NCBI GenBank assembly: GCA_017506865.1
Contig: JAFCMP010000017.1
Span: 372,001-436,000, forward strand
Direction of reading: 5' to 3'
DNA length: 64,000 nt
Origin: Tribonema minus
Lineage: Eukaryota; Sar; Xanthophyceae; Tribonematales; Tribonemataceae
Below the pieces are notes generated by a model. It was not told where the DNA came from, made no database searches, and worked only from the letters and a program-made list of their open reading frames with translations. A program made the position numbers and the translations under genes. This document shows positions 3,001 through 63,957 of the stretch, piece after piece (the first letter of the stretch is position 1; the number at the start of each line of letters is the position of its first letter).

Positions 3001-6000
3001 GCAGGGGGAGGGCGAGGGGGAGGGGGGTGCCGTGGAGCGCTACGACGCGACGCTGTGGTCGCTGGACGACTCCATCCGCTTGCAGCGCCTCGTGGAGGTG
3101 TACGGGACGTCGAGGTGAGGGTTGGGGCTAGGGGTAGGGTTATGGTTGGGGGGCCAGGGTGAGGGGTAGGCGGCTCGTGGAGGTGTACGGGACGTCGAGG
3201 TGAGGGTTAGGGCTAGGGGTAGGGTTAGGATCAGGGCTAGGGGTAAGTGTAGGGTTAGGGTCAGGGGTAGAAGCAGCGCCGCCGCAGCGCCGCGGTGCGT
3301 ACTGTTCAGCGGGAACCGTGTACAGTTAAGCAGTACAGTGTTATGCTCCGAGATACTGGTACTGTTCAGCGGTACACACCATGTACTGTACTGTGCTCGC
3401 GGCGCTTGCATTGGATGATGGCGCCGCTGCTCAACAGCGCGCACGAGCGCAGTGCGGTGCGCGTTTGCGCCTCTCTGCATCACAGACCAAAAACCCCATG
3501 CGCTCGCCGCGCTTATGGCGGCTGGGTGTGACAGTGGTGCTGCTGCGCTGCGAGGGCGGCGGCGGGCGCGCTGGTGCGCTCTCTGCGTCAGCGCTCAGGG
3601 AATCTGCATGTGTCAGCGCTCAGCAAACCGCCGTCCGCACTTTGCATGATTTGCCGTGCGGACGCTGGCGCCGCAGCGCAGACGCACATAGCCGCCGGAC
3701 TGCTTGGAATGCTGCTGTACGCACGTAGCACGACGCAAGATGCCAGCATCACAATTGCGATCCTCGCCTGCGGCACACGCGACCGATCTCACAGCCCGTC
3801 GCGTCAATTCAGGTCCTCAAAAGTGCGCTCTCAAGAGATGAACACGGCCGGCTCACTGGACGCGTCTGATGCGCTTTCTCCACATCGAACACGTTCATGT
3901 ACCTGCAGATCCATGGAACTGGTCACGCGTCTCATTGTCAGCTCAAGGCAGTGCTCATCAACAGGAGCGCCGCGCCGCATGCGCAGCCGCTCGTCCGTCA
4001 CACTGCGTGCCGCGCCTGCTGCATCGTGAAGCTGCTGCTTGCACACACCGTCCGTGCTATGCCAGCAGCCGCGAGAGTGTATCGAGCGCGCACCCCCCCG
4101 TGCATACCATCCACGCCAAAAAGCACATGAGCTGATCCGCCGCGTCTGACCTCGTGTACAGTGGCAGAGCATGGCTCTCTTCATCTAATCCCCCCCCCCC
4201 CCCCCTACCGCCCCTGCCTCCCACTGCCTTGTGACCTCAGCTGATGCCCCCCCCCCCCCCCGCTCCCCCTCTTCCTCCATCGCCAGCCGGTGGTCGGAGG
4301 TCGCGCGCAACCTGCCCGGCAAGTCCGAGATGCAGTGCCTGCTGCACTGGCGCTACGCGCTCAACGAGGACCAGCAGGTGCGCGGCATTGGCAGCTGGAG
4401 CGTGGAGGAGGACGCGCGCCTGAAGGCGCTCGTCACCGTGCACGGCTGCAAGTGGGCGCTCGTGGCGCGCAGGTGAGGGAGTCGCGTGCTTGGAGCGTTT
4501 CACTTGAACTTGAAGTTTGAAGAGTGAGTGCTCGTCGCTGTGTATGGCTGCAAGTGGGCGCTCGTGTCGCGCAGGTGAGGGGGTCGCGGACGTCAGCGCT
4601 CATCACGTTTGGAGCGTCTCGCTGTACACTTGAAGTTTGAGCGCTCGTCGCTGCGCACGTCTGTACGTGGGCGCTCGTGGCGCGCAGGCGAGGGCGGTGC
4701 AAACGTCAGCGCTCGTCATATTGGAGTGTAATCACTTGGACTTGAAGCTGCAGCGCTGGTCGCAGTTGACCGCAGGCGACCGTGCGAGTGAGAGAGTCGA
4801 ACAGTGCCGCGAGCGCTGCCTTAACATGCCCAGATCCCTCTAATCCTGTATCGAACCCTAGACTTCCATAAAGTGCGCCCCTAGCCCTTTAACCCTGTCC
4901 CAAATCCTATCTCTCCATAGGCCGTGGCCGTAGCCCTTGTTGGTGACCAGCGCCGCATCTCTCACCGCCCTCGCCCCCGCGCAGCATGCCCGGCCGCGTC
5001 GCCAAGCAGTGCCGCGGGCGTTACTTCAACCTCCTAGATCCCTCTGACCCTATCCCAAACCGTAATTCTCCATACGCTGTACCCTGACCCTTGTTGGTGA
5101 CCAACGCCGCATCTCTCGCCACCCCCGCCCCCGCGCAGCATGCCCGGCCGCATCACCAAGCAACCACCCTGATCCCCCTTGCACCACCCCAAACGCCTAT
5201 CCTTACCCTTTGGCGACCGCTTTTACAAAATCTGTTCGGTTTTGAATATACAACCAACAGGATTGGAAGACCCCAACCCTAACCCTGTAGCAACCACCGC
5301 TGTATCGCTCGCCCTCGCCTTGCAGCATGCCCGGCCGCGTGGCCAAGCAGTGCCGCGAGCGCTACCTCAACCACCTAGATCCGAAGCTGCAGCGCGGACC
5401 GTGGACGCCGGAGGAGGAGCAGGTGCTGCTGCGCCTGTGCGAGGGGCAGAACCGGCAGTGGGCCGAGATCTGCCGCCAGCTGCCGGGGCGCTCGTACAAT
5501 GACGTCAAGAACAGGTGCGTCACATGCGCCAGGCACTTGAAGTTTGTGTTGGGCTCTTTTGTTGTGTTTTGAGGTTGGCAACGGCGTCAAGAACAGGTGC
5601 GTCACACGCGCCAGGCACTTGAAGTTCATGTTGGGCTCTCTTTGTTGTCTTCTGAAGTTGGCAACGGCGTCAAGAACAGGTGCGTTCGCGCGCCGAGCAC
5701 TTTGAAGTTGATTTCGGGCTTTCTTTTTTGTGTCCTGGGCTTGACAACGACAATCAAGATTAGATGCGTTCGCGCGCGAGTGACGCATGGTACACAGATG
5801 CTCGGAGGCTCGTGTTGGGCGCTTTCGCATCCTGAGCTTGGCAATGGCGTCATGAACGGTGTGCGTTTGCGCGCCGGTGACGGCGCAATACCGAAGCACC
5901 TGCTTTGGAGCTCACGTATGTTGGGCTGTTTTGCGTCCTGGGCGGAAGCTCACGACCTGTGTACGGTGTTGTTGCGGTGCGCGGCAATGAGCGCGCGGTC

Positions 6001-12062: not shown

Positions 12063-15000
12063 ATGAAAGCGAAGGTCGCTGTTTGCGTGCTGCTGCTACT
12101 TGGATGCGAGCCAAACTTCGCCCTGTTGTGCAAGTCGCTGCTGCCGCGCTCCGCCAGATCAGCCCAATGGCAAGGATCCTCTGTGGCACGCAGCAGCAGC
12201 AAATGCGGCACAGGCACCAGCAGCAGGGGGAGATCACTTCGAGCATCTCACATAGAAGAGGGCAAGTCCATGATTGAGTCCTGGCTAGGAGCGAGGCTGG
12301 CAGATCTCGAGATAGTGCCTCGGCCAGCGCACCTCACAGCAGCTGTGGCCAGGGAAAAGGGAAACATGCCCAACTTTCTGGACATGTTCAGGAGCTCTGC
12401 TCCTTACATACGGTGGGTGCACACTGCTGCAAGCTCAAGTGCCCTGACTTCGCATTCCGCTTCAGGCAGTGCATGCTGCAGTCATCCTCTAGAGCTCAGT
12501 TTCACTGCAATAATTGGCAAGTGCTCCTGCTTGAACTACCTCAACATGCCTTTACACGATTGACCACGCAGAATGTACGCAGAACCAGGCCAGCATAGGT
12601 GCCAATCGCCAGTTGGTGTGACATCCGCAGGCACACGCTCGTGACGAACCACACGCACACATCAGCTGTGCGCCGCAACGCCTCCCGCTCACGCCGACCA
12701 TCGCCGCTCGCCCGCCGCGCCCGCAGCATGCACCGCGCCACCACCATGGTCATACACATCCCCGGGGAGACGCTTGAACTGGGCATCTTCAACTATCTGA
12801 TGGACGAGGTGGCGCTCATCAGCATGCTCGGCGCGCGCATCGTGCTGGTCGTGGGGTGCCGGCCGCAGGTGGACGCCATGCTGGCGAGCAGGGGGCTGCC
12901 CACGCAGGTGCGTGCGGCAGCAGCGCTCAGCATGCAACGGCAATTATCTGCAGGTTCAGAGCGGCGTTGCTCAGGGGGCAGAGCAGGCGGGAGCAGGGGT
13001 TCTCAAGGGCTTGGCGTGATTGCTGCGCGTCGCACAGAGTCAGGCGTTCTGGCGGTCGCCCTGCGCAATAGCATTGCAGCAGCTGCAACGCGGCAATGCA
13101 TGTCGCTGGAAGACGTCATCGCGCACTGCCGAATCTGCGCTGCCTCCAGATGCGTGCACCGGCTCATCGGCTTGTGCACCATCACCACCGTCGCACCGCA
13201 GCAATGAATTCACATGACGCAGCGCCCTGACATCACGCCCTGCCCGCAACTGTAATGCAGAAGTTGGCGGGCGGGCGGCGCATCACCGACCCGGAGGCGC
13301 TGTCTGTGGTGAAGCAGTGCGCGGGGTACATGCGCTTTGAGGTGGAGAGCGCTCTGGCGCGCGGGCGCACGGGCGACGCGCTCGTGCAGACGACGGGCGG
13401 CAACTTCTTCTCCGCGCAGCCCGTCGGCGTGCGCAGCGGGGTACGTATGCATGCGGGCTCGCCGATCCCTACCCCGTATGTATGTTGCTAACTCTGAGAG
13501 TCTACGTGCCCTACCCCGTATGTATGAAAACGAATCAAAAGATCGTAGAGCTCTAGGTGACAAGGGATGGTTAGCCGCAAGTGCCTTCCACCAATAACCG
13601 TGGTCGCCGCTGTTGCAGCAATTGGCCACGAGTTAAACAGTACCACCGTATCCACCAGTCAAAAGACTTTGTGTGCAAGCTTTTAGCGTTCGAGGCATGG
13701 GTGTTCAGTATTGGAAAGGTCTCACGTGTTCGGTAGGCCAGCTCCAGCCGGCAGCCCAACACAGAGGTTCAGCAGCTAGTGACAGCGCTCTTGAATGCGC
13801 GTAGTGTAGAAGGTGATGACGCGGGTTTTGAACCAATCCATGCGGCGACATGGAAGGCTCCAGGTTGTTTAGCACGAGCTATCCGTAGCGTTCTCATTTC
13901 CTCACGAGCAGTAGCGCAGCAGACGGAGCGCGGGTCAGGAGTCTTGTCTGACCCCCTAGCTTCGTCGCGCTAGAGGGTAAGCCTCCTTTCTCTAGCTCCA
14001 GCTTCCCAGTTTCCTCTCCATCCCGGGTCGTCCGTCGTCATGTTAAAAAAGGAACCTATGTCGTACGTAATATCTGCACTTTCTTCGACTTATCGACATT
14101 ATGTATGTTGCTAACCCTGATAGTCTACGTACACTGGTGCGCGGGCGATGCGCTCGTGCAGACGACGGGCGGCAACGTCTTCTCCGCACAGCCGGCGCTC
14201 GTGCAGACGACGGGCGGCAACTTCTTCTCCGCGCAGCCCGTCGGCGTGCGCAGCGGGGTACGCGTGTATGCGGGCTCGCCAAGCCCTACCCATATGTTGG
14301 CACAGTAACCCTGATAGTCTACAAACCCTGGTGCGCGGGCAATGCGCTCTTGCAGACGACGGGCGGCAACTTCTTCTCCGCGCAGGGCCACTGGCATATG
14401 AAGCGTGGCAAGCGCGCTCGTACCCCGGGGCAGACGGCGCCTCCTGCAACTGCAACTGCGGTCGGTGGTAGGCAAAACAGGCGCCGGTCACCAGCACACA
14501 CCTGTGTATGCACTACAACAGCACCATTATGACAGGTCTTGTACACAAAAGTCAGCGACGACGATGCGAGCCAAGCTGCATGATATCCCCGATCATTGCG
14601 TTTACTGAGAACCAACAACGTCCGCGGCAGCGCTCATCTCCCCGTGGTGTGCATAAGTCATGTCATCAGTCATTCTGTCACTCAGCTGAAGCAGTCAGCA
14701 CCAGCATCATCAGCAATTTTTCCGCATCAGTGCTTTGCCGTTGACACCAATTATCTGCACCTCTGTTCCTGATCACCGCCTTTTCAGATCAATTACGGCT
14801 ACAGCGGTGAGTTCAGTTACGTTTGTTTCCATTGAGACCAATGTTCTGCACCCCTGATCCTGATCACCGCCTCTTCAGATCGATTACGGCTACAGCGGTG
14901 AGGTGCGGCGCGTGGAGACAGAGAAGATACAGGAGCGGCTCGCGGCGGGCGACGTGGTGCACCTCACGTGCCTAGGGTTTAGCCCTAGTGGACAGGTGTT

Positions 15001-15081: not shown

Positions 15082-15129
<48 letters not shown>

Positions 15130-18100
15130 CACTGTATGTGTGTATACATGTGTACTTGGGAGTGTATGTTTGAAGCGGGCGGGGGGGGGGGGGATGTAGG
15201 GTTGAAGCTCAGCAGTTGAAGCTGGTGTTGGCAGCAGAGAGATGAAGGGGTGCCTCATCCAGCTCTGTGTATTTGCATTTCAAGGCCATTTCTGTCACAG
15301 TAGCTTCATTAGCTCCCTTTGGAAGTGTTGCATGTTGAAACGTTGTCTGTGGGTGATTGGGAACTACTGTTGGAACATTTGGCAGTTACGTGCTCACCTG
15401 TTTGCATGCTTGACGGTTAATGGAGTTACAATCACTACATGTACATTTGAGGCTCACTGCTGGCATCAAGGCATTGACGGAGTGCCTCTGTCAGCGTTGA
15501 AGCACGCACTGGCCCTCTTTTCGTTGCTGCACCACATGTTGGCTCAAGTGCGAACAGATGGTGAAGTGTTATCTTTGTGTTACCTCTGTGCGCGCCTGCT
15601 TCTCAAGTGAAAGCCGGGTGAACTCTCATCCCATGTTATCCCATCATTGACGACTCCAAGGCCTGTTGCACTTGAGTAGGGCTGACAAGGGCTTGGCCGC
15701 CAATGAAGCATGTAGCACGCACAGGAAAAACTGACTTCCAAAGTGAAGTTGAATGAAGGAGAGTCACATATGGTTGACCGTCTGTTTGTGCTGTGATTGC
15801 TGTGCTGTGCAGTTGAACGCCAGCAAGCTCATCTACGTCACCCAGGGGGAGGAGTGCTTATGGGATCGCTCTGCAGGGCACACAGTGCTGGTGAGGCATG
15901 CACCTGCTATAATCATGCACCCTGAATGCATGTTTGTGCCCACGTGTTGTCGATGTAACACATCTTGGTACCTGTGTAGGTTCCGAGATGTACAGGTACC
16001 GAGATGTGTTGCATCGACAACACCTGGGCGCACTCATGTACCAGTACCTACTAGATGCATACATGCCTCGCTCAGGACATGGACGTGCCGAGGGAACTGC
16101 TGGCCCTTGTGAAACTGCTGTTGTCAGGTTCCAACCAAAGCAGACTGCGCTGCAAGTGGTTGGTCGTTGCCTGAAGCAGCTGATGCACCTGCAACTGCAG
16201 CACCGGAGTTGTGGTGACCAGGCACGGCGTACTGGCGTCACTTTCTGCTAATGATTCTGCGCTGTTTGAGAGCTGATGGAGCTGATAGAGCTGATGGAAG
16301 CTGAAATGTCACTGCTTAAGTCTCCATCCATCTGCAAGCATAGAGCGTCCGCGCAGTCACAGCATCCATAGCCCGCACCCTCGTGGCGCTCGCACCTATG
16401 CCACCAGCGCCAGCTTGATTCTGTAAGGTTGTATCGTGTGTAGGGGTTAGCCCGAGGGTCAACAGCGGCCGTGCAGTCACACTGCTCTTTTTGACAGTGC
16501 AAGTGCCTGCTGCGCTTTGACGCGCCGCTGGCGCCAACCCCGTCCTTGACGTCCTAGCCTTCGTCTCGCCGCCTCGTCAGCATCAATCTGGCTTTGGCTG
16601 CTTCGCTGGCGCTCAACCCTCCCCGTGATGCCCCCAGCCCCCCCCCTGTCACCCCCTCACCATTATCCATTTGGTATCCGTTCTAACGGCGCACCCCTTG
16701 CGCACCCCCCGCAGAGCCTGCGGCTCCGCGAGGCTGCCGCGCTGCTGGAGCTGCAGCGGCAGCGCTCAGTAGCGGCGGACGGCGAGGGGCGGACGCCGCC
16801 GCCGCTGTGCTGATGCTAACCGTAGCTAACCCTGACCCAGACGCCTTAGCCCTCATCTCGACCCCCCCTCAGAATCATCATCAGTTTGTGTGCCCCGTCT
16901 CGACCCCCCTCAGTATCATCAGTTTGCATGTTCTAATGGCGCCGCTTGCAGAGCCTGCGGCTGCGCGAGGCGGCGGCGCTGCTGGAGCTGCAGCGGCAGC
17001 GCGCGGCAGCGGCGGACGGCGATTGGCGGCCGCCGCCGTCGCCGCGGCAGCAGGCGGTGGTGGACCTCATCGGGCACTGCGTGGAGGCGCTGCAGCAGGG
17101 CGTCAAGCGCGCGCACCTCGTGCCGCCCGTCGACGGCGGGCTCATAGAGGTGAGCGCTGCTGCTGATGATGATGACGATGATGATGCTGTATGAGCGTTG
17201 CTGTTGATGCTGTTGCTGCTGCTGCTGCATGAGCGTTGCTGCTGATGCTGTTGCTGCTGCGGGTGCGCTGCTGCTGCTGCGGGAGTGCTGCTGGTGTTGC
17301 TGCTACGTGAGCAGTGCTGCTCGAAGTGCCAAAGCTGCGATTCAAGCGCCAGCCTGCGCACGCAGCGATTGGCGCGTCTTGCAGCCGCTGCTGCTGCTGC
17401 TGCTGTGCTGCTGCTGCTGCTGCTGCCTGAGCGGTGCTGTTTGACGCGCCCGCGTCGCGCTTCATGCCATCCATTCACGCGCCGTGATCAGCCCGCTTTG
17501 CAGCCGCACACGACCGCCACAGCAACGCAACAGCAGCGCTCGCCAAATTCGAGCCACGCTGCTCTTCACACCTAGCATTGCTGACCCCCCCCCCCAACAC
17601 CGCCACCACCACCGCTCTACACGCGCAGGAACTGTACACACGGGAGGGCGCTGGTATGCTGATATCGCGCGACATTTACGAGGGGATATCGGGCGCGGAT
17701 CCCGCGCACCTGCCCTCCATCGCCAAGATACTGGCGCCGCTAACGGGGGAGTTTGGGTGGGCGCCGGTCAAGTCCACGGCGCTGGAGCAGGAGCTCGATG
17801 CGTGGGTTGTGTATACCAAGGATCAGAAGGTGGGTGCGTATGCGGGGGGGGCGCGCAGTGCACGTGTGTACACAATGTACACATGCAGTACAGATGTGTG
17901 GACAGGCCAACCTTGTACACATGTGTACACGTGCACGTGCGCATATATTCTTTGAAGCACGCGCGTGCATGCATGCCTGCAGTCTATGCCCTTGCGTGTA
18001 TTTGCATTTGCGCACGCATGTATGCACACATGTTTCATGGATGCGCATATGAGCCTACATGCACTGATATAGCATCCCACAGAGTCCGCTCGACCACTAG

Positions 18101-19965
18101 CAGGGGCCTGCGCGATGCCGCGTCACCAATTGGAAGCGCCGTCGCGTGACACTGCTTAAAAACTACATGAGTTGTCCGCTCTCCATAGGTCGGCCTCCAG
18201 AGCTCCCACCGCACACAATATTTGTTTACAAGTAGAGCTCTACAATCTTTTGATTCGTTTTCATTTCGTTTTCATTTGTTTACAAGTAAGAACTTATTAT
18301 TTGGCGTATTACGCAGGCCCTGGCCCTAACTTAATCGTAACCCTAACCCTAACCCCAGGTGGTCGGTTGCGCGAGCCTGCACCTGTACGAGGGGGATGAG
18401 AGCCTAGCTGCACGCGGGGCCACTTCCGTTGCGGAAGTGGGGCACTTGGCGGTGATGGAGGCGTACCGGGCGCAGGGTATCGGGAGGGCGCTGCTGGGGT
18501 ACCTGGAGCGAATGGTGAGCACTGTTGACGCATGTCATTATACATAGAAGTATATATATAATGGTGAGCATGTGTGCTCATGCATACGGCAACCAGTGCT
18601 TTGACAAAGCATGTATGAGTAGGCTAGAGGGAGGGAGCCTAGCAACACGCACGCATGCTGCAAGTGGTTTCTACACCTATGGGCGTTTGATAACGTGCGT
18701 GGTCACAGGGTATTGGGAGGGCGCTGCTGGGGTACCTAGAGAGAATGGTGAGCATCGCTCATGCTGTCATTGTACATACGTAATGATGAGCGCATACGTG
18801 CATGTCATGCCCCGGCCGATGCTCGTAACGAAATTCGTGCTCGACGTCTTTGAGTGAGGGCCTGTGGCAGCACGTGCGTATGCAGCGGGGTGCTTTCAGG
18901 GTATCGGGAGGGCGCTCCTGGGGTATCTGGAGAGAATGGTGAGCACTGTGTATGCATGTCATCATACATGGAGGTATATATAATCTTGAGCATGTATGTT
19001 CATGTCATGCGCGTGGTGACGGGTGCCTTTGATGATCCTGCTGCTGTATGTGCAACTGGTGCCTTCGATCGCGCTGCTGTGTGTGAGGAAGCGTGTGCGT
19101 GCGTGTGTCTCTGTGTGTGAGCGCGTTTGAGGGGGAGGCGCTGGCAGCGCGCACGCGCGCGGTCGACACCCTATACATAGAAGTACACGCATACACGGCA
19201 CCCTCTTGCGTGCTGTCATGCTATTGCTGGACGGCCAGTGGGTGCCACCGGAGCTGGCGCCATGCAAACAGTCGCGCTTGCGTCAACGTGAACTGCCCCC
19301 TCCCCTACCCCTAACCCTGATAACATTTTGGCACACGGGCCTTGTGCAATGGTCAGCACTGCCAATTAACTCTTGTGGAGTAAAGCGCAGCAAGCACTCA
19401 CTGCTGGCTTCGAGTCAGCATTTGGAGTTGGTATTGTTCTCGGCGGCCGTACTCTGTGCTGTGAGACTGGCGGCTTTCGTTGATCTCAACCTCAATCGAT
19501 CATCACTTAGGTTAACCCATACCCCAACCCTGAGATCATCACTCACATGAACAGGCCCTCAATGCAACAGGAGCCTGCAGGCGCTTGGCATCAGCCTTGC
19601 TCACCTGTGCCATTGCGCGCGCGACGCCGCGGCCGCTGCAGCGCGCGCATCGACGCTCACTCCCAACTTCAACTTCAACTGCTGTGCTGCCCGTTGTGTC
19701 CATGCATGTTGACACTGGTGCGTGGTACAGGACAGTATAGGCACCTGCAAGCGCTGCTGCTTGGCATCAGCAGTGCCGCCATCTTCCATCGCCGCGTTAA
19801 ACTTCAACTGCTGTGCTGCCCGTCGTGTGTATGCATGCGCAGGCCATCGCCAGGGGTGTAGAGCGTCTGCTGGCACTGACGTCGGGGGGCGGGCAGTGGC
19901 TGGTGGAGCGGGGGTTCACGATTGCCAAGCCGGACGAGGCACTCCCCGCAGGTGCAGTCCGCTAG
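12063..19965 (+). CDS. N-acetylglutamate synthase (amino-acid kinase + GNAT domains), plastid-type leader
   Basis: Makes N-acetylglutamate from acetyl-CoA and glutamate, the first step of arginine synthesis. Exons: 12063-12412, 12727-12907, 13261-13440, 14879-15043, 15813-15890, 16952-17149, 17629-17829, 18359-18514 and 19843-19965 (TAG). All phases match, giving about 543 residues. The N-terminus is a signal peptide (M-K-A-K-V-A-V-C-V-L-L-L-L-G) followed by a basic Ser/Arg-rich stretch, as in bipartite plastid leaders. The amino-acid-kinase-like domain starts near residue 105 (F-L-D-M-F-R-S-S-A-P-Y-I-R, then the I-P-G-E loop and G-A-R-I-V-L-V-V-G). The GNAT domain covers about 452-540, with the acetyl-CoA loop R-A-Q-G-I-G near 488. 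The intron after 15043 has a GC donor (AAG|GCAAGT). The C-terminus is shorter than in plant enzymes and may lack a last exon. Four junctions are tandemly duplicated. Its decarboxylase neighbour suggests linked Arg/Lys/polyamine metabolism (inference). Confidence 0.88.
13378..14395 (+). repeat. dispersed copies of the donor end of NAGS exon 13261-13440
   Basis: The exon end (ctcgtgcagacgacgggcgg to gcgcagcggg|GTACG) recurs in the next intron at about 14135-14262, in a back-to-back double copy, and again at about 14330-14390. A flank containing gtatgttgctaac and tagtctacg precedes the copies at 13487 and 14100. The working donor is 13441, the only one continuous with the kinase-domain reading frame. 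Confidence 0.8.
13527..13639 (+). mobile_element. dispersed repeat A (copy 1)
   Basis: About 113 bp beginning AAAACGAATCAAAAGATCG, about 85% identical by eye to the reverse complement of 34624-34736. A 39-bp fragment of the same end sits between direct repeats at 18220-18288. The two long copies share an open frame beginning M-V-x-R-K and continuing P-I-T-V ... G-H-E. The copy sits in NAGS intron 3. Confidence 0.6.
14770..14903 (+). repeat. duplicated acceptor and start of NAGS exon 14879-15043
   Basis: The intron end (gatcaccgcc...tcttcag) plus the first 20 exon bases (atcgattacggctacagcgg) occur twice, with exon-like starts at 14788 and 14879, period 91. Only the second continues as coding sequence (V-R-R-V-E-T-E-K-I). 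In the first copy GGTGAG directly follows the exon-like piece, so it could act as a micro-exon of about 20 nt. Confidence 0.8.
15083..15128 (+). repeat. (TG)n microsatellite
   Basis: A run of about 23 TG units in NAGS intron 4, followed by a poly-G tract at about 15180-15193. Confidence 0.9.
15944..16023. other. long near-perfect hairpin in NAGS intron 5
   Basis: Arms 15944-15975 and 15992-16023 (32 nt each) are inverted complements with only two differences, separated by a 16-nt loop. Read as + strand RNA, both differences are U opposite G, so all 32 positions can pair. The arms start gtgttgtcgatg and end catcgacaacac. It could be a small-RNA precursor, a young inverted-repeat element, or an intronic structural element. 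It is not part of any reading frame I recognise. Confidence 0.75.
16715..16813 (+). repeat. decayed upstream copy of NAGS exon 16952-17149
   Basis: After its own CAG acceptor, this segment repeats the first about 75 bases of the working exon (agcctgcggct...gagctgcagcggcagcgc) at a distance of 237 bases. The copied flank includes gcgccgcttg/gcaccccttg. Its frame runs P-P-P-L-C and then a stop at 16811-16813, so inclusion would truncate the protein. Confidence 0.8.
18220..18288 (-). mobile_element. 39-bp solo fragment of dispersed repeat A with 15-bp direct repeats
   Basis: The 15-mer atttgtttacaagta occurs at 18220-18234 and 18274-18288. Between them lie 39 bases that match the end of repeat A on the minus strand (agctctacaatcttttgatt). 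The direct repeats look like a target-site duplication left by insertion of a strongly truncated element, in NAGS intron 7. Confidence 0.6.
18473..18945 (+). repeat. three copies of the donor end of NAGS exon 18359-18514
   Basis: The 39-base exon end (ggtatcgggagggcgctgct to gagcgaatg) and donor GTGAGC occur with donors at 18515, 18748 and 18939 (spacings 233 and 191). All three keep the acetyl-CoA loop codons with few changes, such as GCTCCT and GAGAGAATG. Only the first is joined to the rest of the GNAT exon. Confidence 0.85.
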
Positions 19966-19969
19966 TAGG

Positions 19970-29675: not shown

Positions 29676-32600
29676 ATGGTCGTTGTTGAGGGGTCGTCAT
29701 GGCCATGGCATGGGAGGTACTGGAGCAGATGGTGCACGCTGGCTGCTAGTGTTTTCATTGGATGCTTCTGCGGGGTGGGCTATGCATTTGGCCTGTTTTC
29801 GGACACCTTCAAGGAGAACCTGGGGTATTCGCAAAGGAGCTTAGATCTGGTCGCCAGCTTCGGTGAGCGCAGCACGTTGGTTGCCTGCAAGCTGTGTGAG
29901 GACGTTAACGGCTGTATGTACCCAGATATTCTATACTGATGAGCTTGTGGCAATATTACAGTTGAGATGCTTGACATGCGGTGCAGCAAAGCAGATTCAA
30001 CGTGTAGTCTACAGCACAAACAGCGATTCAAGGTGCTTTCATGAGTGTTGACAATGTGAGGTTGTCATTGATCGTCATAATCTAGTGCTGGTGAAGCCAA
30101 TCTATCAGGATTGCTGTCCCATCAACCTGTGACTCCTGAAGCCAATAGGGCAGTTGATGCAGCCTGCCTGTGCTGTCATTTTGTAGCATTGAAGGGAGCG
30201 ACGCTGTGACCTGTCTATTTGCATGTACGAAGTGCCTAGTGCAGCATCCTGCTTAGAGACTTGCAAGGCACATCTTTTCACAAATATATTGCAGTGGTGC
30301 CCACCCGCAATCGAGCTGCTGCCTCATATGATCAAGGGACACATGCCATTGATGCAGACATTGGGGGTAGCGTCAGGGTCAGGTCAGAGCTAATCCCCAA
30401 TCATCAATAACACACTCAACCACAAACATAATCGTGGGAACAGCGGCCGATGACACCACCACCATTGATGCGCTATTTGCATCGTCAATGAAATGTGACA
30501 CGCCACTATTATGAAGGTCTGCAGAGCACTGCCAACTGCTCTCCTCTTGCCATGCAGCTGCCAGGCAAACTCCATGCGGCACATGCAGTCGCGCTGGTTT
30601 CAAAGTGTGGCGCCTCTCAATGATTGTGTGCATCACCTGTCGTGAATGCACCCACCAGCAGAGCATGTCATGCGCTGCTTGCGCGCTGCACACAGGCGCT
30701 GCGCTGTACCACGCTTTGACTTAACGCTGACCCTAGCCCGAAGATTTGAAGCACGTCGCACAGAGATGTGTCACGTAAAACATACATCACGAGAGCAAGA
30801 ATCAGTTTGAATGTGTACGCAGCTGTCAGCCACAGCCAGCCTCTTTCAGACATCACATCTCTGACCCGTGTCCTCCAGATCACCTGTGTGCCAACCCTAC
30901 CCCTATTCCCAGCTGTAGAACAAGTCAGTCATGAGAAGAACTGGGGGCAGCACTGCTGCAACACACCGTTGCCAAGCCAGCGCCAACTTTCTGGGTGCGG
31001 TCTCGCTTGCTGCTAGCGAATTGGTACCGCGCTGTGTTCCCGATTAGCACAATGGAATGGAATTCAAGTCGCTGAGCACAACTTCAATAGGCGTGAACCG
31101 TGTCACTACCTCGGTGTTAAACGAGTGAGCCGACGTTACCAGCTCAGGATCCCTCGACACACTGTGACGAAGGCAGAGCTCCGAACCCACTACACTGGAT
31201 ACGTATCGTGCAGAGACAGCTGGCCCCCTTACCCCCCCCCCCCCACTGCCCTGCGTACAGGCGAACTGGGCATGTGGAGCACGTTCCTCGTGGGACTGGT
31301 CCTGGAGCACGTTCCGCCGCGCCGCGTCTTTGTCCTCGGCGCACTCGTGAGCTGCGCAGGCCTCATGTACATTGCGGTGGCGACGGACAACAAGATAGAG
31401 TCGTCTGTCGCGACGGTCGCGGGCGCGTACTACGCCGCCAACTTGGGCATCGCCGCGTTCCAGACGGCCGCGCAGAGCATCTGCGTGCGCAACTTCCCGG
31501 CGGTCGACCGCGGCAAGGTGACGCTCTGCACCTCTTATGAATGTGTGTTGCACATACATGGACCCGTGACATCGTACCTTGAGTAGATATACATGTATGC
31601 CTACACGCGATGGTCGTCGCCACATCTAAGACCACTGCGCAGAGCATCTGCGTGCGCAACTTCCGGCGATCGACCGCAGCAACACACACATTCTTGCCCA
31701 AAAGCACCAACTGCGCCAAGCCCGCTTGCCCCCTTGCGATCTCATATGCTCATCAGTGCTCACAAACAGTTGCCTGCAACGCCCCCCCCCCCCCCCCCCC
31801 CTGCCCCTCCAGATCTGTGGCCTGCTGAAGTCGATACTCGGACTGAGCAGCGCCATCCTGGCAGCACTGTTCCAGGGGCTGTTTGGGGAGGAAAGGGTCA
31901 TCACCTTCCTGTTTGTCATTGGGTGAGTGATCATTTATCTGATTGGGGAGGGAACAGTGGTCATCTCGCTTGTCATTAGGTGACCATTCATTGGTATATA
32001 TTGCCAATGGGTGATGGGTCATGTGTTTGCATATGGACACTGGGAGGGCTGTGCCATGGGGGGGCAGCACTGCTGATAGCGCCAGTCACCAGCAATCCTG
32101 GGGGTAGTTGTGCTCTCGGAGATGAGCGTTGCGCAGTTTGTGTTGCGCATACGTCCGAATGTGCCAGCCCGCGGGCGCTCGCACAGCTGCGGAAGGGGCG
32201 CAGGCCTCCCCTTTTTGTTGCCATGACGCTGTTGAGTATGGTAATGTTATTGGAAGGCTGATAATGCTGCTGAAGTTCAGTATTGCTGTTTGTTAATGCT
32301 GTTGAACTCTGGCACTGCTGCTGAAGTTTGATGATGCTGTTGATGTTTGGTAGCGTCACCCAGTGATGTCTTCCCCCGCCCCCCCGCCCCCTCAGATCCG
32401 TTCTGCCGACAGCAGCGCTGATCGCGGCGGTGCCCTTCAACGTCGTCCCTGCCGCGCACCTGTCGTACGTCGTGGAGGCGGCGCAGGGCGTTACCCCAAC
32501 GCTCAACCACTTCTTGCGCTGGTACGCGGCGCTGATCGCCGCTATCGTCATAGGCATCGCACTCACAGGTGCGGCTAGGCGACTCAGGTTTATGGGATCA

Positions 32601-35600
32601 GGGTTTGGTTGAGGGTTAGGGCAAGGGTTGTTTTTGAAGCTAGGGTGGTTTAGGGTTCAGAGCAGGCTTGACACCAGCGCTCTACCACTTTTTTCGCTGG
32701 TATGCGCCGCTCATCGCCGCGATCATCATAGGCATCACGCTGACAGGTGCAACTGGGGTTAGGGCCAGGGTTTGACTGGTGAAGTAGAAGTACTTGAAGT
32801 TACGTTTTGTTTCAGCGTGACACCAGCGCTCGCCCACTTTTTGCGCTGGTATGCGGCGCTCATCGCCGCGATTGTCGTGGGCATCGCGCTCACAGGTGCG
32901 GCTACAGGCGACTTAGGGTTGGGATTAAGGCACACAATGTGTGTTGCATCAGCGTTGTCACCCTGCTGCACCTTGAGCACTGAGCCCTCGTGTTTTGTAT
33001 CTTGTCTTCCGCCGTGACCCCGGTGCAGCCTGCCACGTGACCCTTCCGGCGCCGTATTGGGGTATCGGCGTCCTGCTGCTCATCACGGGGGTTCTGGCAG
33101 TGCCGTGCTGCTACGGCAGCATCACTATCAAGGTGGGGTATGCTGGACGTATGCGCGTGCATGTATCCTTTGACAGATCCCCCCAATCCTCTGCACTGGC
33201 GAGGCCGCAGGGTAGGGGAGCTAGCGTCACAGTTGAAGCGTCGTGCGCAGCACATAAATTGCAGTTGGTGTGGTTGAAGTTGAAGGCAGCGCGCAACTCT
33301 TTAGCGGCGGAGGCATCATGGTGCGAAACATGTGCGCTGCCATGTCAAGTGTGTCATGTTATGCTGAGTCAGGGCGCATAGGGGGGCGGGTGGGGGGTGC
33401 GCCCTTTGTGGTGGCAGTCGGTTCAAATTGCGCCTTCATTCTGATCGGTACTGATGACCTGCGCAGCGCTGTCATCAGAGCACTGCCACGCTTGCTGTGT
33501 GCTGCTACTGGAAGCACACGCCTCTTTCATGTTTGCCTCCGCGCTTACCCTGCTACTTCAAGTTGACACTACCCCTGCTGCTCGGACCCGCGAAGCCTTG
33601 CACCGCTGACAAACACAACTAATCGCGTTTCTGGTCGCCGACCACAATCCGCAGAGCGCTGCCGACGAGAATGCAGACAAGTCCCCTCATGCATGCAACA
33701 ACGCACCGCAGTCGCTATCGGTTGTCGCAGAGAGCACTGCTGCACGTCCCCTGCTACTTCGACATCAGGCCCGATGGCTGATTCTCCGCATCAATCCCTC
33801 TATTGGCTATTGCTGTGATTTGCAGAGCGCTGCCGCAGAGGATGCGGACGAACCCCTGATGCAGGAGGTGGAGCCCCTCCTCGGCACCCCCCTACTGGGC
33901 ACTGTCCGCGAGGGGGACAACGGGGGGGGGGTGGAGCTCGAGGGGTCACAGCCGGCATTTGCGTGCGCGGTGACCGTCGCGCCGGCGCTCGCGAAGGAGG
34001 GGGATGGGGGGATGACGTGGGTGGAGGCCATGCAAGACGCGCGGTTCTGGGCGCTGCTGTTCGCGTTTCTGTGAGTGATTCGCGAGTGACTCACAGGAGT
34101 GACTCACAGGAGTGACTCACACTTGAGGTTAGAAGTATCAGCACGAGTTCTGGGGGCGCGAGAATAGTTGAAGCTTGACTTAAGAGTAGCAGTCCTACGA
34201 GCATCGTCACGCGGTCGTCCGCGCCTCCATTTGGGAGCAATGCAACACTGTATCGCAGCCATGCATCCCTTGAGTGACATACGGAGCGGCATGCTTTACT
34301 GTCCGAGATGGACGCGCTGTGCATCATTGCCGCAGTGCGGTGTGCCAAGCGCTGACGGAGGAACGTTCAGTGCTGCCGCAGAGATGATTTTTGAGCGCAG
34401 GCACACGCGGGCGCCTAATCTGCCCCCCCTTGTCACTGCTTGTGCTACCCTATATGTATGTATGTTGGCACCTACCCATGCCTGCCGTACGTCCAGTACC
34501 CAAGCAAACGCGGCTGCGAGCGCCCAAACGCGGCTGCGAGCGCCCCATAGTCTTGTCCTGTTTTATCGCTAGGAGCGCGCTGGGTATGCTGATGTAACCC
34601 CCCTTCATCAGCATGTAGATAACCTTTTGGCTCGTGGCCAGTGACTGCAGCAGCGGTGAGAACCGTTATTGGTGAAAGCCACTTGCGGATAACCATCTCT
34701 TGTCACCTAGAGCTCAACGATCTTTTGATTCATTTTTTATAACCCCCCAAGTGACGTAAAACCTTGTATAAACAATACCTACCTACGCTGCAGGCATATA
34801 TCGTTACCCCCGCACAAACGTGACCCCCCCCTCCCCTCCCCCCCCCCCCAGTAGACATGTACCCTAACCGCTACCCTGCGCTACCCTACATACCCTGCAC
34901 AGATGCGGCGCGGGCTCCGGCCTAGTCGTCATCAACAACATTGCCAGCATCGCAGACTCTCTCGGCGTGCCCTCCAGCTCGCTGCTGGTGAGCATCATCG
35001 GCCTCTGCAACGCGGGCGGGCGCTTCACGGCGGGGTGGGCTTCGGACCGCCTCGTGGAAGCGGGGATGCCGCGGTGAGCAGTGCTGGCGTGGTACTGTGT
35101 ACTGGTCTGTACTGTACTGTACTGTACTGTTTGTGGAAGCGGGGATGCCGCGGTGAGCACGGGTACAGAGAGGGGGGGGCACTGCGTGTACTGCGTACAA
35201 CAACCAACTGCATTCTGTACTGTTTGTGGAAGCGGGGATGCCGCGATACGCGCGCGTCCAGGAGAGGGGGCAGTGCTTGCGTGTACTGTGTACTGTTCTG
35301 TACTGTACTGTACTCTACTGTACTGCACAGTAGCTCGCATTCAGAGAGGGTGGGGCAGGGCCAGTACTGCACTGCCGCTGTGTAGTGTGTACTGTACTGA
35401 ACTGTATTGTACTGTACTGTACTGTACTGTACTGTGTGCGGAGTTGCGTGGTCAGTACTGTGCCCGACGCCTGAGCGCGCGCACGCCGGGCGGTGCAGTG
35501 CACGAATAACGGCACAGGACGGGGAGGAGAGTCACCTGGTGCAGTTGCGTCAGTCGCGTGGCGCGGCGGCGGCGCCACACAGCGTTGCCACGACATATGA

Positions 35601-36815
35601 CACAAGTCCGTGCGCTGATACACACCGCCATTCGCGGTGCGTGAGCGCTTCGATGCCTGCGGCGCACTGCTCTCTGGTGCCAGGCATTCGTGTTGGTGAC
35701 TTTTGTCTCCGCATCTCAAGTTGCCGGCACAAAGAAGGTAGGGCCCGCAGTGACATCTACGCAGCCAGTGCTGCAGCCTGCCGATGCATCTGTATTCAAA
35801 GCCCCCCCCCTCCCCCTGCACCCCCCCCTTGCTCCCCTTGCAGAGCCACCATGCTCTGCTTTAACCTGACGCTATCGGCATGTGTCAGCCTGCTGCTGAG
35901 CGCTGGCGTGCCGGAGCTGCTGTATCTCGGCGCCGCACTGGCGGGCATCGCGTACGGCTCAATGTTTAGTGTCGTGCTGGCCGTGTGCGGCGACTGCTTT
36001 GGCACGCGCCACATTGCGACCATCTACGGGCTGCTCGACCTAGGGTGAGCACTACTCCAACTTGAAGTATGTACTTGTATTGGCTGGTGTTCAACGTCGT
36101 GCTCGTCGTTTGCAGCGACTGCTTTGGCACGCGCCACATCGCCACCATCTACGGGCTGCTCGACGTAGGGTGAGCACCACTGCAAATTGAAGCAGAAATA
36201 TGTGCTTTTGATCGAACTCTCGCTCAGAATGCGATAAAGGCCAGATGGTGGATGTCCAGCTTGCTACCGGACTACATTGTGTGGTGTGAACAACTTGAAA
36301 TGTCTCAAATTTGAAATCACCATGTGCCACCTTTTTGAGGCCCAACGATGATGCCGCATTGACGGGAAATGTGTCGCAGTATAGACACACGCCGCCGTCT
36401 GCAGATGTCAATCTCTTGGAAGCATTGTGAAGTTTTGACTGGGACCTCACATCTCATGGCTGCACAAATCCTCCGTCACTCTCACCTTCGCAACACACAC
36501 ACACTCAAGCGCATCAACTCGGCTCTCACTCCAAGACTCACGACTCTCGACTGCCTCCCCCCTCCCCCCCCCCAAAAAAAACGGCGCAGACCGGCATCTG
36601 GTTCGTTCCTCTTTGCCACGCTGCTCGTCAACGTCACGTACGGCATCGAGCCCGACTGCCTCGGAAGCGCGTGCTTCTCGGGCACCTTTGCCTTCTGTGC
36701 GGGCGCCGCAGCCTTTGCCACCGCTACCACATACATCGCTCTCGTAAGGCCGGGCCTGCAGCTGCGGCGCGCAGAGCGGCGGCGCGCCGGCGCGGAGGCG
36801 CACCTCATCGGATGA
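29676..36815 (+). CDS. NFD4/nodulin-like major facilitator superfamily transporter
   Basis: Multi-pass membrane transporter of the nodulin-like/NFD4 branch; substrates of this branch are poorly known. Nine exons, all phases matching: 29676-29862, 31261-31517, 31813-31922, 32396-32568, 33029-33132, 33826-34070, 34903-35073, 35844-36044 and 36590-36815 (TGA); 557 residues. The first helix is F-I-G-C-F-C-G-V-G-Y-A-F-G-L-F-S. The exon 3 start (C-G-L-L-K-S-I-L-G-L-S-S-A-I) is a family hallmark, as is C-G-A-G-S-G-L-V-V-I-N-N-I-A-S-I at the start of the second half, followed by G-R-F-T-A-G-W-A-S-D. Exon 6 is the acidic central loop (D-E-P-L-M-Q-E-V-E-P-L-L) leading into D-A-R-F-W-A-L-L. The end is basic (L-R-R-A-E-R-R-R). 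Several acceptors use long poly-C tracts, and five junctions have tandem copies in the introns. Confidence 0.88.
31468..31680 (+). repeat. copy of the donor end of MFS exon 31261-31517
   Basis: The exon end (gcgcagagcatctgcgtgcg then caacttcc) recurs at about 31637-31680. The copy has lost the GT after the equivalent of GGCAAG and carries a short deletion, so it is an old, non-functional copy. Confidence 0.7.
32500..32896 (+). repeat. three copies of the donor end of MFS exon 32396-32568
   Basis: The exon end, from about ccaacgctcaacca to gcactcacag, with donor GTGCGGC, recurs with donors at 32747 and 32896 (spacings 178 and 149). Each copy keeps 60-75 bases of exon homology, encoding L-R-W-Y-A-A-L-I-A-A-I-like sequence. 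TTAGGG-like runs separate the copies. Confidence 0.85.
33640..33690 (+). repeat. upstream copy of the acceptor and start of MFS exon 33826-34070
   Basis: The working junction reads tttgcag|agcgctgccgcagaggatg. A copy at 33655 reads ccgcag|agcgctgccgacgagaatg, 171 bases upstream, with about 25 bases of homology before it diverges. Confidence 0.7.
34624..34736 (-). mobile_element. dispersed repeat A (copy 2)
   Basis: Reverse complement of this segment matches 13527-13639 at about 85% by eye, and on the minus strand it carries an open frame beginning M-V-I-R-K-W-L-S-P-I-T-V. Located in MFS intron 6. Confidence 0.6.
35050..35440 (+). repeat. copies of the donor end of MFS exon 34903-35073 with ACTGT microsatellites
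   Basis: The exon end gtggaagcggggatgccgcg recurs with junctions at 35153 (GTGAGC intact) and 35246 (GT changed to AT), spacings 79 and 92. Tracts of TACTG units at about 35100-35130, 35285-35325 and 35385-35437 fill the rest of the repeat. Confidence 0.85.
35998..36175 (+). repeat. duplicated donor end of MFS exon 35844-36044
   Basis: About 50 bases of exon end (ctttggcacgcgccaca to ctgctcgac) plus GGGTGAGCAC occur twice, donors at 36045 and 36170, period 125. The second copy keeps an intact donor and encodes the same F-G-T-R-H-I-A-T-I-Y-G-L-L-D. Confidence 0.85.
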
Positions 36816-55965: not shown

Positions 55966-58900
55966 TCAGTTGCCGTTGGCGGCGCGCTTGTCGCGCGCGG
56001 CGCGCTCCTCCAGGATCGTGAGCTTGACGCCCTTGCCGCGCGGCAGCGAGATGGCGGGGCGCGTAGACTCGCCGAGCACAAAGATGTTGGCCTGGCGCGT
56101 CGCAAAGACGTTGCCCGCGGAGTCCTTGACCGTGACGATGTCGAAGGACCCGGGGTGGCGCTCGATGTGCTGGATGGTGCCCACGCGGCCCGTGTTGTGG
56201 CCGCGCGAGATCATGCAGAGGTTGCCGATCTCGTACTTGTAGATGTCCGACATCTTGCCCGTCTCCACGTCTACCTTGATCGAGTCGTTGACCTGAGGGG
56301 GCGGTGTGTAGGGAGGTAGGTATGATTGAGCGACTGAGGGGTATGTGTATGAAGTACATGTGATGCGGATGCAGGGCCGCGCGTCGCCTCACTTGTGATG
56401 TGATGCGTAGGCAGCAGGGCTCCCTAGCTTTGTAGGGACGTAGCACTGCTGCTTCAGGTGCGCAAGGCCCAGATCTGAAGCTGAAATATGGTGCACACAA
56501 CATCTGCTGACTATGTCCTGCATGCGTTGTGCGTACCCGAATACCCCGCCCCTCCCCCATCCAAATGCTTGTTGCATGCCACAACACTGACTTCAAGCAG
56601 TGTAGTCACATGAACCGTGAGCGCTGCAATTACAGCCTTCAAGTGTAGAAGCATGAGAAGCCTGAGCACCGCTACTGACTGACAACGACAAAGACGTTGA
56701 TGAGAGATGCGCTTGTGCCACTTCAGAATGGTCGGTTCAAACGGTGGCTCCGACTTGGCTGATGCTTCGCCGAGTAAACTGCTACATGCCATTTTGAGAG
56801 GTTCAGGCCGACTCCACATCATGTGAACGCACAAACGCATCCACACATACGTAGTGTGCATACACAGATGCGCAGTATATTGATGCATGCCTACATGCGT
56901 GCATCATGATGGCAGAGGGTGGTGCGCGTGTCGTGCACGAATACCTGCAACGCGCTTGGAACTGCGCACTATGTACTTCCACACGCGTGAACACATACGC
57001 GTATTACGGTATTATTGGTGCGTACATGTATAGTCTACATTAAATAATGAAGTGCGCGTACGTACATGTATAAGGTAGCGCGAACCACACCTTCATGAGG
57101 AGTGTATCTGTGTACATGCATGCATACATTTATTCACAGAAAAAGTTCGCGACATACCTTCACGAGGGGGTCGGGGTAGCGGATGGTGCGCCCGTCGTGC
57201 GTGACCAGGAAGGGGATCTTCTTCTTGGAGACCTCCACCTTCTGCACGCGGCACAGCTTGTACTTGGCCTCCTCGTCCTTCACGCGGTGCAGCACAAAGC
57301 GCCCCTTGGTGTTGTACAGCAGGCGGAACTGGTCCGCGGACTTCTCGATGGAGACGACGTCTGGGCGCGCGCACGAGTAGGTATGTAGGTATGGGTTGAG
57401 CACTGCGGCGAGCACTGCTGCAGCAATACTGCAGGCGGAACTGATCCGCGGACTTCTCAAACGAGACGATATCTGCACAAACACAGGTAAACATCACTTG
57501 CGCACGCAGAGAGCACTGCTGCAGTGCGCGCAAAGGCGCGCACTGTCGCCGATACCGCCGCCGTCGCTGCCGCTTGTCCGATGCGGCGCGCGTCGCTGCA
57601 GGATTCGCGCGTGAATCACCCACAGCACTACGATAACATACACTGCATGATCTCAGGAGGCAGGGCGCTTTGCGTACAGAGCGCGTCACTAACTAGCATG
57701 CATACGAAACGCATGAGTGTAATGATGTAGCACCTACACCAACACGCATCGACATGTGTGCAACAACAAACGATATCGCCAGCTGCCACAGCCGCCGCCA
57801 CCGCCGCCGCCACTGCCGCCGCCACCACCGCCGCCACCGCTGCCGCCGCTGCTGCCAACACCACGCCTCCGCCGCAGTGTGCACCGAGCGCTTGCTGCTG
57901 CACCAGACAAACACGCCAACAACAACAGCAGCAGGGGAAAAGCTCCCAAGGCAGCAGCAGGCGGAACCGAAGTCCAGCACTGCAGGCAGGCCTTTTTTTA
58001 CCCCCATGGACTGGCACATCATACCCCCCCCCCCCCGCCCTCCCCCCCCCCTCCCACTCAGCTCACGCCACCGAATATGGTGGCCTCAACTCTCTGATGC
58101 CAGTAAAGGCGACAGAAGAGTTGCAAGAGAGAGGGCAAGGGCGGGAGACGTGGGGGGGGGAGGGGGGGATATAATGGCACGATGGACTACCACCAGGTGG
58201 CCCTAGCCACATCACTGCAAGGCCAGATGGGGGACCGCGAGGCCCCCTATCCAACCCCCCCCCCCCCCCCCCAACTCCGCTCTCTTTGCAGAGAGCCGTG
58301 AGGAGGGGGGGGGGGAGGAAGCAGCGATGCGATGCGCTAGGGAATCTGCGTGGCGTGTGCATTCACCGCTGGGGCGGCGGCCCGCGCCGCGCGCGCCCGT
58401 CTCGAGCCCCGCGCGCAGGGGGTATGTAAGGGTATGACATACACATTATACCCCTACATAGCCCTTGCAACACGGGGCGAAACAGGGCGCGCGCGGGGGC
58501 CCGCGCTTTGCTGCCGCGCCAGGAACCGGGGCGCATGGTGGCATGCCCGCACGACGCGCGCACAGGCAACTGGTGCCGTGAGCGCGCGCGCGTGGCGCAG
58601 CGGGAAGCGGGCATGGAGCCCTCCCCTCCGGAATCGCGCCAGAGACCGCACAGACCCGACCCCCGTACTTGCGTTTCCGGGGCGATGAGGCGGGAGGGAA
58701 GCCCCTGGGGGACCCACGCCCCGCGCCCCCCCCCCCCACACACACACCCCAAAAAGGGGGGGAAAGGGGGGAGGGGGCGACAGGGGGGCCCGCGCACCAG
58801 TTGCGACCCAATTACGCACCCTGCGCACCCCCCTTTCTCCGCCAGCAGCCGCGAGGGCTGAGCATCATCAAAGGGGGGTGCGTGGGCGTGGCGGCCGGGC

Positions 58901-61195: not shown

Positions 61196-63957
61196 ATGAA
61201 GCTATGGTGGAACCATATGCGGGCCATGCTGACCAAAAATCTGCTGCTGAAGAGAGCGGACTGGATCCAGGTGCAAAGTCAACTGTGCACAAACCCTGAT
61301 TGCTGCTCTGTGGAGGTCTGCATGACGTGCGAGCATGCTCGCAGCTGCATTGAAGCACCTGAATACATGTTCATAACCGCAGTCGCCATGAGTTCACGTG
61401 AATCTTTAACATAACTGTGTGTTGAGAAGGCCAGGCGCTGGCGGAGATCACGCGTGAAGTTTTTTCTGACTCTCTCGCATTCTCTGCTTGCTCGATGAAA
61501 CACCCAGACGCTCGCAGAGATCGCTCTGCCTGCTGCATTCATGGGCCTGCTGGTGTGGATCAAGAGTGTTACAACAGTCTTCGACAGCCCCAGTGTGGCA
61601 TACGTCTGCGGTCAAGCACCGCCATGGCAGTACGACAGCCACCTGAATCCATTTGGAGGCGGCATTCTGTCGTGCCTGCGCAAGCCTGCAGAGTGCACGA
61701 CCCCTAACTACTACACGTGAGTAACTGTAAAATTTGCAACAAAGAAGTCTCTTGATTAAATCCTACTTGCATCATCCGTGTCCACGCTCTCGTATTTGAA
61801 GCGGCACTGAAAGCGGGAATGGCGCACGCATGCGCCAGCTTTCTGTGCCCTATGTAGCAATGTACGCCGTGCATGCATCATGTGTAATCACACCTTGTAA
61901 GCTCTCTTGCTCAATGCCCTCATGAGCAGGCCGATTGGTGTATCGGCCATCGCTGTGGCTGTGCGAGCGCATGCCATCATCGCCTGTTACCGAGCGCCGT
62001 GCTCTCCCTCATGCCTTGCTCCATGCGCCGGTGCCTGCACTCCAACGCTGCAGTGACGACTGGGGCATCGGGGCGGCGCTGAACAAGACTGACATCTACA
62101 CGAGCTACGGATACATGCCCGGCGCGGACCGATACCCCTTCTACGCATTCACGGTGGAGGACGGAAGCAGCATCTACGAGGTGGGCTCAGGCACATGAAC
62201 GCTGCAGAAAATTGCGTCCATTCGGTGATATAGTGGTACAGCACGTCACTGGGTGTCATACTGTGCATCGATCAGGATGGTTGGATCTATGCGCAAGCAG
62301 CAGCATAATGATGGGCGTGGTGCACGCCTTGATCAGATATTTTCAGCAGTATACTCTTCCAGCGTACCGTGCGATGCAGCCAATGCTCGCCTTTCAAGAC
62401 ACCTTGTACCTCTGTCAATGTCGTGCTGTTGCAGCGTACCGCGAGCAGCTTGCGATGCAGCCAATGCACGCCTTCCCACCTTGCACTGCTGTCAATGTTG
62501 TGCACTGATCCGGCAGGAGGCGGAGGCGCTCACTGGATTCCAGCTGTACAACCCCAGCCTGGAGCTGCTGACGGTGGCGCGAAGGCTGAAGTTCAACGGC
62601 CAAGAGGTCAGCAGAAGTCAGAGTCTCGCTGTTGTGAAGTTCATCAAGACACAGTGCATGCAATCACTTACCCTCACGATGTCGGTACTTGACCGTTGTG
62701 CTCGTATGCTAGCGCAAAGTGCGCAGCAGTTCGTGCGTATAGTCATGCGCTCCACCTGGTTCGGCCATTGCACGGCCGCTGAGCCATGGCCGCAGCGCTG
62801 GTATTGCACGGCATCGACACACATGCATGCTGCGCACATAGTGACACTTGCACGCAGCGCTCAGCAATAGAAGAGTTGCCAGCAGCGCTCTGTAATGAGC
62901 CAGCCGCACATTCGTCAAAACTTTGTTGCGGCGGTGCCACGCGACAGTCTTGCCCAACAGCGCAAGCAACAGTGCTCGACCTCACACACACACACACACC
63001 CCTCAATCAGAACTTTATTGCAATAGCGCCGTGCGACAGCCTTGCCTAACAGCGCAATCAGCAGTGCTCACCCTTGATACCCGCCCCCATCCCCCCCCCC
63101 CCCCCCCCCCTTCCTACCAGAACTTCATCGCGGTGGCGTCGCGCGACAACGCGCCCCCCGCCGCGGCGGCGGCGGCGCGCCTCTTTGCGGAGCACCTATC
63201 GTCGCGCCTGACGGACGGCGACGCACGGCTGAAAGGCATCGTCCGCGCCTTTGCCTCCGAAACTGCCATCGAGCAGTATGTTAGTGACGCCAACTATGAT
63301 TCCCCCGGCAGTGTGAAGGTCGGCTTCGCGGTCGTGTTCAACGAGGCGCCGCCGGCGCTCGCGCGCGCGGAAGAGGCGTGGAGCGCTGCTGCTGCTGCGG
63401 CCTCTGCGGAGGACGGCGCACTTGCAGCTGCTGCTGGGGGTGATGATGGCGAGGGAGAGGGGCTGCCGCAGGAGGCGGCAGCAGTGCTCAGACAGCAGCA
63501 GCAGCAGCGCTCAGCAGGCCAGGACGGGGCAGCGCTCAGGCAGCAGCAGCAGCAGCAGCGGCACCAACGCTCAGCAGATGCTGACTTTCTACTCGCAGCG
63601 GGAGCGGCGCCGGCGCCGCCGCCGCTCGCGGGCGGCGGCGACTGGGACTACACGCTGCGCTTCAACTTCACGTACGCGGTGGACCTGCTGTCGCGCTCCA
63701 GCACGTGCCTCTACGGCATGTGCGACGGCGGGGGGGAGGGGCTGCCGGGTACCCGCCTGCCCCCCACGTCCCCCCTGCTGCGCCCCCCCTCCGCCGCGGC
63801 CGCGTTCGGCTACGGGCGCTCGGGGTTCCTCGCGGCGCAGCGCTGGGTGGACGAGTGGGTGGTGGGGGTGGCGGCGGGGGGGGGGCAGGGGGTGAGCCTA
63901 AAGGGGAGTTTCGCTTTTTTTCCGGAGCGCGCTTACAGGACGGACCAGTTTCAGCAG
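61196..63957 (+). CDS. ABCA-type ABC transporter, N-terminal part
   Basis: Start of a full-length subfamily A transporter (lipid-type); the gene continues past the window. Exons 61196-61270, 61520-61716, 62054-62180, 62517-62606 and 63121-63957, all in phase; the last ends at CAG|GTGAGA. 442 residues visible. Exon 1 is the family start (K-N-L-L-L-K-R-A-D-W). Exon 2 is the first membrane helix (L-P-A-A-F-M-G-L-L-V-W-I) followed by Y-V-C-G-Q-A-P-P-W-Q-Y-D. The rest is the first large non-cytosolic loop (V-V-F-N-E-A-P, W-D-Y-T-L-R-F-N-F-T, Y-R-T-D-Q-F-Q-Q). That loop carries an unusual insertion with two poly-Gln stretches and Q-R-S-A-G, made by CAGCAGCGCTCAGC repeats. The ATP-binding domains lie beyond the window. 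Confidence 0.88.
62350..62512 (+). repeat. tandem repeat before ABCA exon 62517-62606
   Basis: Two units of about 90 bases, each with cagcgtaccg, gcgatgcagccaatgc and ctgtcaatgt, lie directly upstream of the acceptor. This one duplicates intron sequence only. Confidence 0.7.
62915..63145 (+). repeat. upstream copies of the start of ABCA exon 63121-63957
   Basis: The working start (ccag|aacttcatcgcggtggcgtc) has degenerate copies beginning at 62919 (aactttgttgcggcggtgcc) and 63011 (cag|aactttattgcaatagcgcc), spacings 92 and 110. Each is followed by a copy of the cagtgctc intron segment. Confidence 0.75.

Follow-up and report, generated by a model that had tools for sequence, protein, structure and literature searches.

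The window analysed here is a stretch of 64,000 nucleotides of the Tribonema minus genome. Pfam supports spliced models for MYB (three Myb stretches), NAGS (amino-acid kinase and acetyltransferase), MFS and eS4, as well as the exons of EF-1alpha and a decarboxylase; the names ABCA and eIF1A are putative, and Pfam support covers the other named genes. Self-alignment of the window together with reading of the alignments confirmed that splice junctions are copied, as had been claimed from the letters alone, in MYB, NAGS, MFS, eS4 and the ABC-type gene (Table 1). The sixth gene named at that time, eIF1A (about 41.9-42.4 kb, minus strand), had no junction copy, and the sole self-match in 40,300-42,500 was weak and lay elsewhere. 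EF-1alpha and the decarboxylase had been described as free of copies, and the self-alignment indeed gave no match in either gene. Ten window junctions are spanned by copied blocks with at least 8 bp on each side of the junction, which was the rule for counting. Five further junctions were seen by self-alignment or by eye and were not counted, namely the NAGS acceptor at 16952 (the block holds too little intron), the MFS donor at 31517, an MFS acceptor at 33826, the eS4 acceptor at 57360 and the ABC-type acceptor at 63121, where the resemblance of the copies to the real exon start was judged by eye. Window lags are mostly 79-240 bp, with a copy number of two to about five. After the complexity filter no repeat pair of at least 50 bits was found in 20.0-31.2 kb or 36.2-57.3 kb, stretches that include EF-1alpha and eIF1A, and the arrays seem to be tied to certain genes.

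Table 1. Copied splice junctions of the window, in window positions
Junction	Span	Strand	Copies
MYB donor, exon end 3114	3085..3227	+	block 3085-3142, copy 3170-3227, lag 85, 96.6% identity
MYB donor, exon end 4472	4428..4763	+	lag-102 array, from self-alignment
MYB acceptor, exon start 5326	4880..5382	+	real 5308-5382; upstream copies 4970-5041, 5126-5162
MYB donor, exon end 5514	5497..5876	+	array, lag 82-83
NAGS donor, exon end 13440	13366..14385	+	block 13366-13505; copies 14112-14191, 14185-14322, 14306-14385
NAGS acceptor, exon start 14879	14735..14902	+	14826-14902 copied at 14735-14811, lag 91
NAGS acceptor, exon start about 16952	16711..17042	+	16948-17042 copied at 16711-16805, lag 237, 89.5%
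NAGS donor, exon end 18514	18473..19004	+	copies 18706-18778, 18897-19004
MFS exon end at donor 31517	31444..31682	+	block 31444-31516, copy 31611-31682; not counted as spanning
MFS donor, exon end 32568	32487..32925	+	three copies; lags 178, 327
MFS donor, exon end 35073	35054..35293	+	lag-79 array
MFS donor, exon end 36044	35963..36192	+	copy 36088-36192, lag 125, 87.6%
eS4 acceptor, exon start 57360	57315..57475	-	57315-57363 copied at 57427-57475, 85.7%; not counted as spanning
ABC-type gene acceptor, exon start 63121	62915..63150	+	62915-62977 matches 63007-63069, lag 92

Other repeats lie among these arrays. The first NAGS donor array holds a probable inserted element at 13510-14105, as read from the sequence, and the sequence at its end is found again, reversed in orientation, in a NAGS intron further on (about 18240-18290). 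A TGTAC microsatellite at 35097-35435 lies within and after an MFS donor array.

The genome comprises 158.18 Mb in 554 contigs, in which 92 light-harvesting matches were found. In 45 seed exons the G+C content of third codon positions is 87%, which allowed a small gene model to be trained on the sequence itself; the splice profiles of this model are ordinary (AG|GTRAG, YAG|) and include some GC donors. Chaperonin genes were chosen because their exon order can be checked, and ten loci were taken from a PF00118 search with 56 exon matches. Combined with five window genes, they form a main set of 94 introns in 15 genes whose exons were checked by homology. Junction-spanning copies were present in 42 of the 94 introns (34 at donors, 20 at acceptors) and independent internal arrays in 13, while inverted alignments under the same criteria gave none at junctions and one internal. 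The set leaves out an intron of L022 and another of L025, where an exon was uncertain or missing, as well as low-complexity repeats, lags below 40 or above 1500 bp, and blocks with less than 8 bp on either side of the junction, which drops eS4 and one NAGS acceptor. The exon 2 donor of L027 was set one base early, and its junction copy is absent from the counted families. A complexity filter that discarded multi-unit blocks gave 28 donor, 18 acceptor and 12 internal cases; the counts reported here use a changed filter.

Among 15 random 10-kb loci, 12 contained at least one local repeat pair and three (L005, L011 and L013) had none. Their 69 model-predicted introns included 14 with junction-spanning copies (9 donor, 7 acceptor) and 11 with internal arrays. 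Kinesin and SNF2 genes showed, by eye, exon-end copies beside their own exon (122 of 191 kinesin candidates were scored), and no neighbouring copy was seen by eye among 81 rows for Hsp70 (73 of 98 candidates scored). In the kinesin, SNF2 and chaperonin rows the copied exons were of donor type in 8 cases and of acceptor type in 5; several rows are weak, with E values up to 8.7. The DNA confirmed three kinesin cases that had been picked because their rows showed copies; L029-L031, picked for visible copies, were excluded from all rates. A literature search, whose coverage of subscription papers was poor, found no description of such a pattern.

For exon-containing blocks at lags of 40-1500 bp, the copy lay in the adjoining intron in 98 of 98 cases and was never inverted. 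Ninety-two of these blocks reach the junction that faces their copy and 6 are exon-interior; 58 reach the 3' end of an exon and have their copy in the next intron, and 34 reach the 5' end and have it in the previous intron. The exon part measures 9-118 bp, and the smallest lag per family has a median of 148 bp, mostly 84-277 bp. Copies confined to adjoining introns and never inverted point to contiguous local duplication and argue against captured fragments, RNA copies and transposition. The sequence-only reading had noted that donor copies lie downstream and acceptor copies upstream of the real site. This rule holds in exon-containing blocks but is not evidence of a direction, since contiguous tandem duplication and selection for an intact protein force the extra copy into the intron.

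Head-to-tail units make up 25 of the 54 junction families, and the other 29 consist of block, spacer and block with sharp edges, the identity just past the block being near the random level in 34 tested pairs with a spacer. The spacer families, which plain slippage does not explain, count against the account favoured below. The spacers could also speak for insertion of a mobile element (an introner), of fragments or of RNA copies, with which the arrays share bulk intron change in a protist genome. However, where introners would be expected in either orientation and at unrelated sites, no copy was inverted or lay in a non-adjoining intron within 1500 bp. Moreover, the spacer at 18547-18705 and the array at 5503-5749, the one spacer and one array searched, matched only themselves in the genome (simple repeats skipped), so that no shared element was seen, and the copies come from the gene's own junction. 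We regard insertion as very improbable.

The copies add substantially to intron length. Array introns have a median of 798 bp compared to 461 bp for array-free introns (p 6e-7); copies and spacers account for 45% of array-intron length, and their removal gives a median of 497 bp, close to the array-free value. Joined at its outermost sites, CCT-epsilon gives 337 residues on 337 family-model positions with no net gap, and CCT-gamma covers nearly the whole family model. Splicing at the outermost sites is thus predicted to restore conserved proteins. If the protein is kept by use of the outermost sites and the duplication runs across the junction, the extra copy must stay inside the intron.

Within the introns the copies decay. 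Median identity was 93% for the exon part and 84% for the intron part (76 pairs, intron part 15 bp or longer; pairs from one array are not independent). The copies showed 158 synonymous and 137 non-synonymous codon differences and 2 stops. Usable splice dinucleotides were present in 46 of the 49 donor copies and 24 of the 26 acceptor copies, or 70 of 75 compared to about 63 expected without constraint. These identity, codon and dinucleotide figures mean that the copies are under at most weak constraint and decay in a near-neutral manner, and that intact decoy sites are not purged. The small excess of usable dinucleotides, the surplus of synonymous changes and the copies of the NAGS donor at 18514, where all codon differences are synonymous, would fit copies kept for a function, as reserve splice sites, alternative exons or splicing enhancers. 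Against such a function, nearly half of the codon differences are non-synonymous, the exon copies differ in extent, and within one chaperonin complex the subunits range from no affected introns to nearly all, which makes it improbable. The earlier proposal that introns are lengthened by decaying copies of their own boundaries is borne out in many genes of the genome, and in places the process is recent (97% identity for a MYB copy).

Some contigs resemble paired haplotypes, a sign of incomplete collapse of the assembly that would speak for artefactual copies. Differences of 5-30% are common among the copies of one array, and copies turn up again in independent contigs; an assembly artefact can hardly be credited for that reason. 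Identical or near-identical family matches occur on different contigs in C90/C179/C359 and in C70/C489, which suggests uncollapsed haplotypes or recent duplications and offers a chance to find polymorphic arrays.

Affected introns differ among genes beyond chance (permutation p 5e-5). In the CCT complex the affected introns were 0/7 in alpha, 0/5 in eta, 0/9 in beta, 3/8 in gamma, 6/9 in delta, 5/6 in theta and 9/11 in epsilon. CCT subunits are made in similar amounts, and expression was rejected as the cause of the uneven arrays given the span from 0/9 to 9/11. The two cpn60 paralogues have five intron positions in common, with 1 of 5 introns affected in L026 compared to 5 of 6 in L027, and their mean intron lengths are 486 and 1124 bp, respectively. 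The sixth L027 intron (L027 7702-8346 against L026 3805-4307) is missing in L026, through gain or loss.

Whether junctions are preferred depends on what is expected by chance. The 94 introns hold 54 junction and 13 internal families. Simulation with conserved exons and ordinary decay gave junction:internal values of 0.65-0.89 for tandem and 0.40-0.64 for block-spacer-block duplication, and length alone predicts 0.63-0.69 at the observed lags and 0.27-0.30 for block length. An excess at junctions could still arise without targeting, if short tandem duplication is frequent in genes generally, selection clears the exons but keeps introns and junctions, and exon conservation aids the detection of junction copies. 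Several results agree with this. Internal arrays occur too, in the 13 introns already mentioned. When exons were masked the families stood at 27:28, which does not differ from the tandem expectation (0.82, p 0.65) and exceeds that for spacer duplication only (p 0.02), in a test that is confused by multi-copy arrays, as the simulation lacks them. At the random loci, where the gene models are rough, the ratio was 16:11, and junction pairs look slightly older than internal pairs by intron identity (0.835 vs 0.866), as a detection bias predicts. A further result against a preference is the count of 8:3 at an overall identity of at least 90% (p 0.08 compared to a fraction of 0.47). In contrast, families aged by the intron part alone stood at 22:7 at an identity of at least 0.85 and 12:2 at 0.90 or more, compared to 0.61-0.80 for tandem and 0.20-0.24 for spacer duplication in an age-controlled simulation and to the length expectation at the observed lags. 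We consider an untargeted origin a serious alternative, though on balance an unlikely one. Repeats had also been expected to overlap junctions more than random placement allows, and at the random loci an overlap with predicted exons was seen for 21 of 43 array regions compared to 13.5 expected; as regards targeting itself, the masked test and the random-locus ratio lead us to call it likely, not proven.

Two sequence features were considered and rejected. A TTGAAG/CTTCAA-type motif had a weak tie to array donors (7/34 vs 4/60, p 0.09), too weak for a driver, and it does not mark copy edges (9 of 108 edges vs 7.9 expected). A cassette-exon origin would put an AG at the left edges of donor copies, where by eye it was just mildly frequent. 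In the 15 genes, TTGAAG/CTTCAA-type words number 40 in the first 50 bp of introns compared to 7-18 per bin in the next eleven 50-bp bins, roughly a threefold frequency, and telomere-like TTAGGG words are enriched in introns.

The account that we favour, and consider probable, is that short, direct and local duplications strike exon-intron junctions in many genes and that the copies are trapped in introns. The outermost donor and acceptor would be used in the RNA, giving the same protein. Some duplications would expand into arrays, with unequal exchange between copies as the probable cause, and decay of the copies would then be almost neutral. The first step may be a staggered break or a pair of nicks near the junction that is filled in before end-joining, sometimes with filler. 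Small tandem duplications of this kind are described in mammalian cells, where PMC8355091 attributes them to fill-in of staggered breaks by CST and Pol alpha-primase and to end-joining. As in the account given there, the duplications in Tribonema are direct, local, tens of base pairs in size, repeat-independent and contiguous with their source. They differ from it in their longer lags and in the frequent presence of spacers and arrays, and a role of these enzymes here is putative.

The pattern had been linked to the intron-gain model in which an exonic AG|GT segment is tandemly duplicated to form a new intron (Rogers 1989 and Hellsten 2011, as presented in PMC4974935), with cases described for a potato RdRp (PMC4974935) and for Drosophila (PMC2891723). 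As far as these accounts go, the likeness is that a short direct duplication arises inside a gene, the copy becomes intron and the protein is unchanged. Unlike in that model, an existing junction is copied with intron sequence, an existing intron lengthens and many genes are involved. The model does not fit the counted blocks, which consist of exon and existing intron sequence, and five intron positions are common to L026 and L027.

It is possible, and we propose it tentatively, that junctions are hot spots of break-and-fill duplication tied to transcription or splicing, in which case the copying of splice sites into introns would be an ongoing genome-wide process that lets introns grow and supplies decoy and new sites. 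Intron lengthening and the origin of new splice sites have mostly been inferred from rare single events. In Tribonema minus, dozens of copies of varied ages lie beside their source in housekeeping genes, and array-free subunits of the same complex serve as controls. The mutational origin of intron length, and the neglect of intact decoy sites by splicing, thereby become countable.
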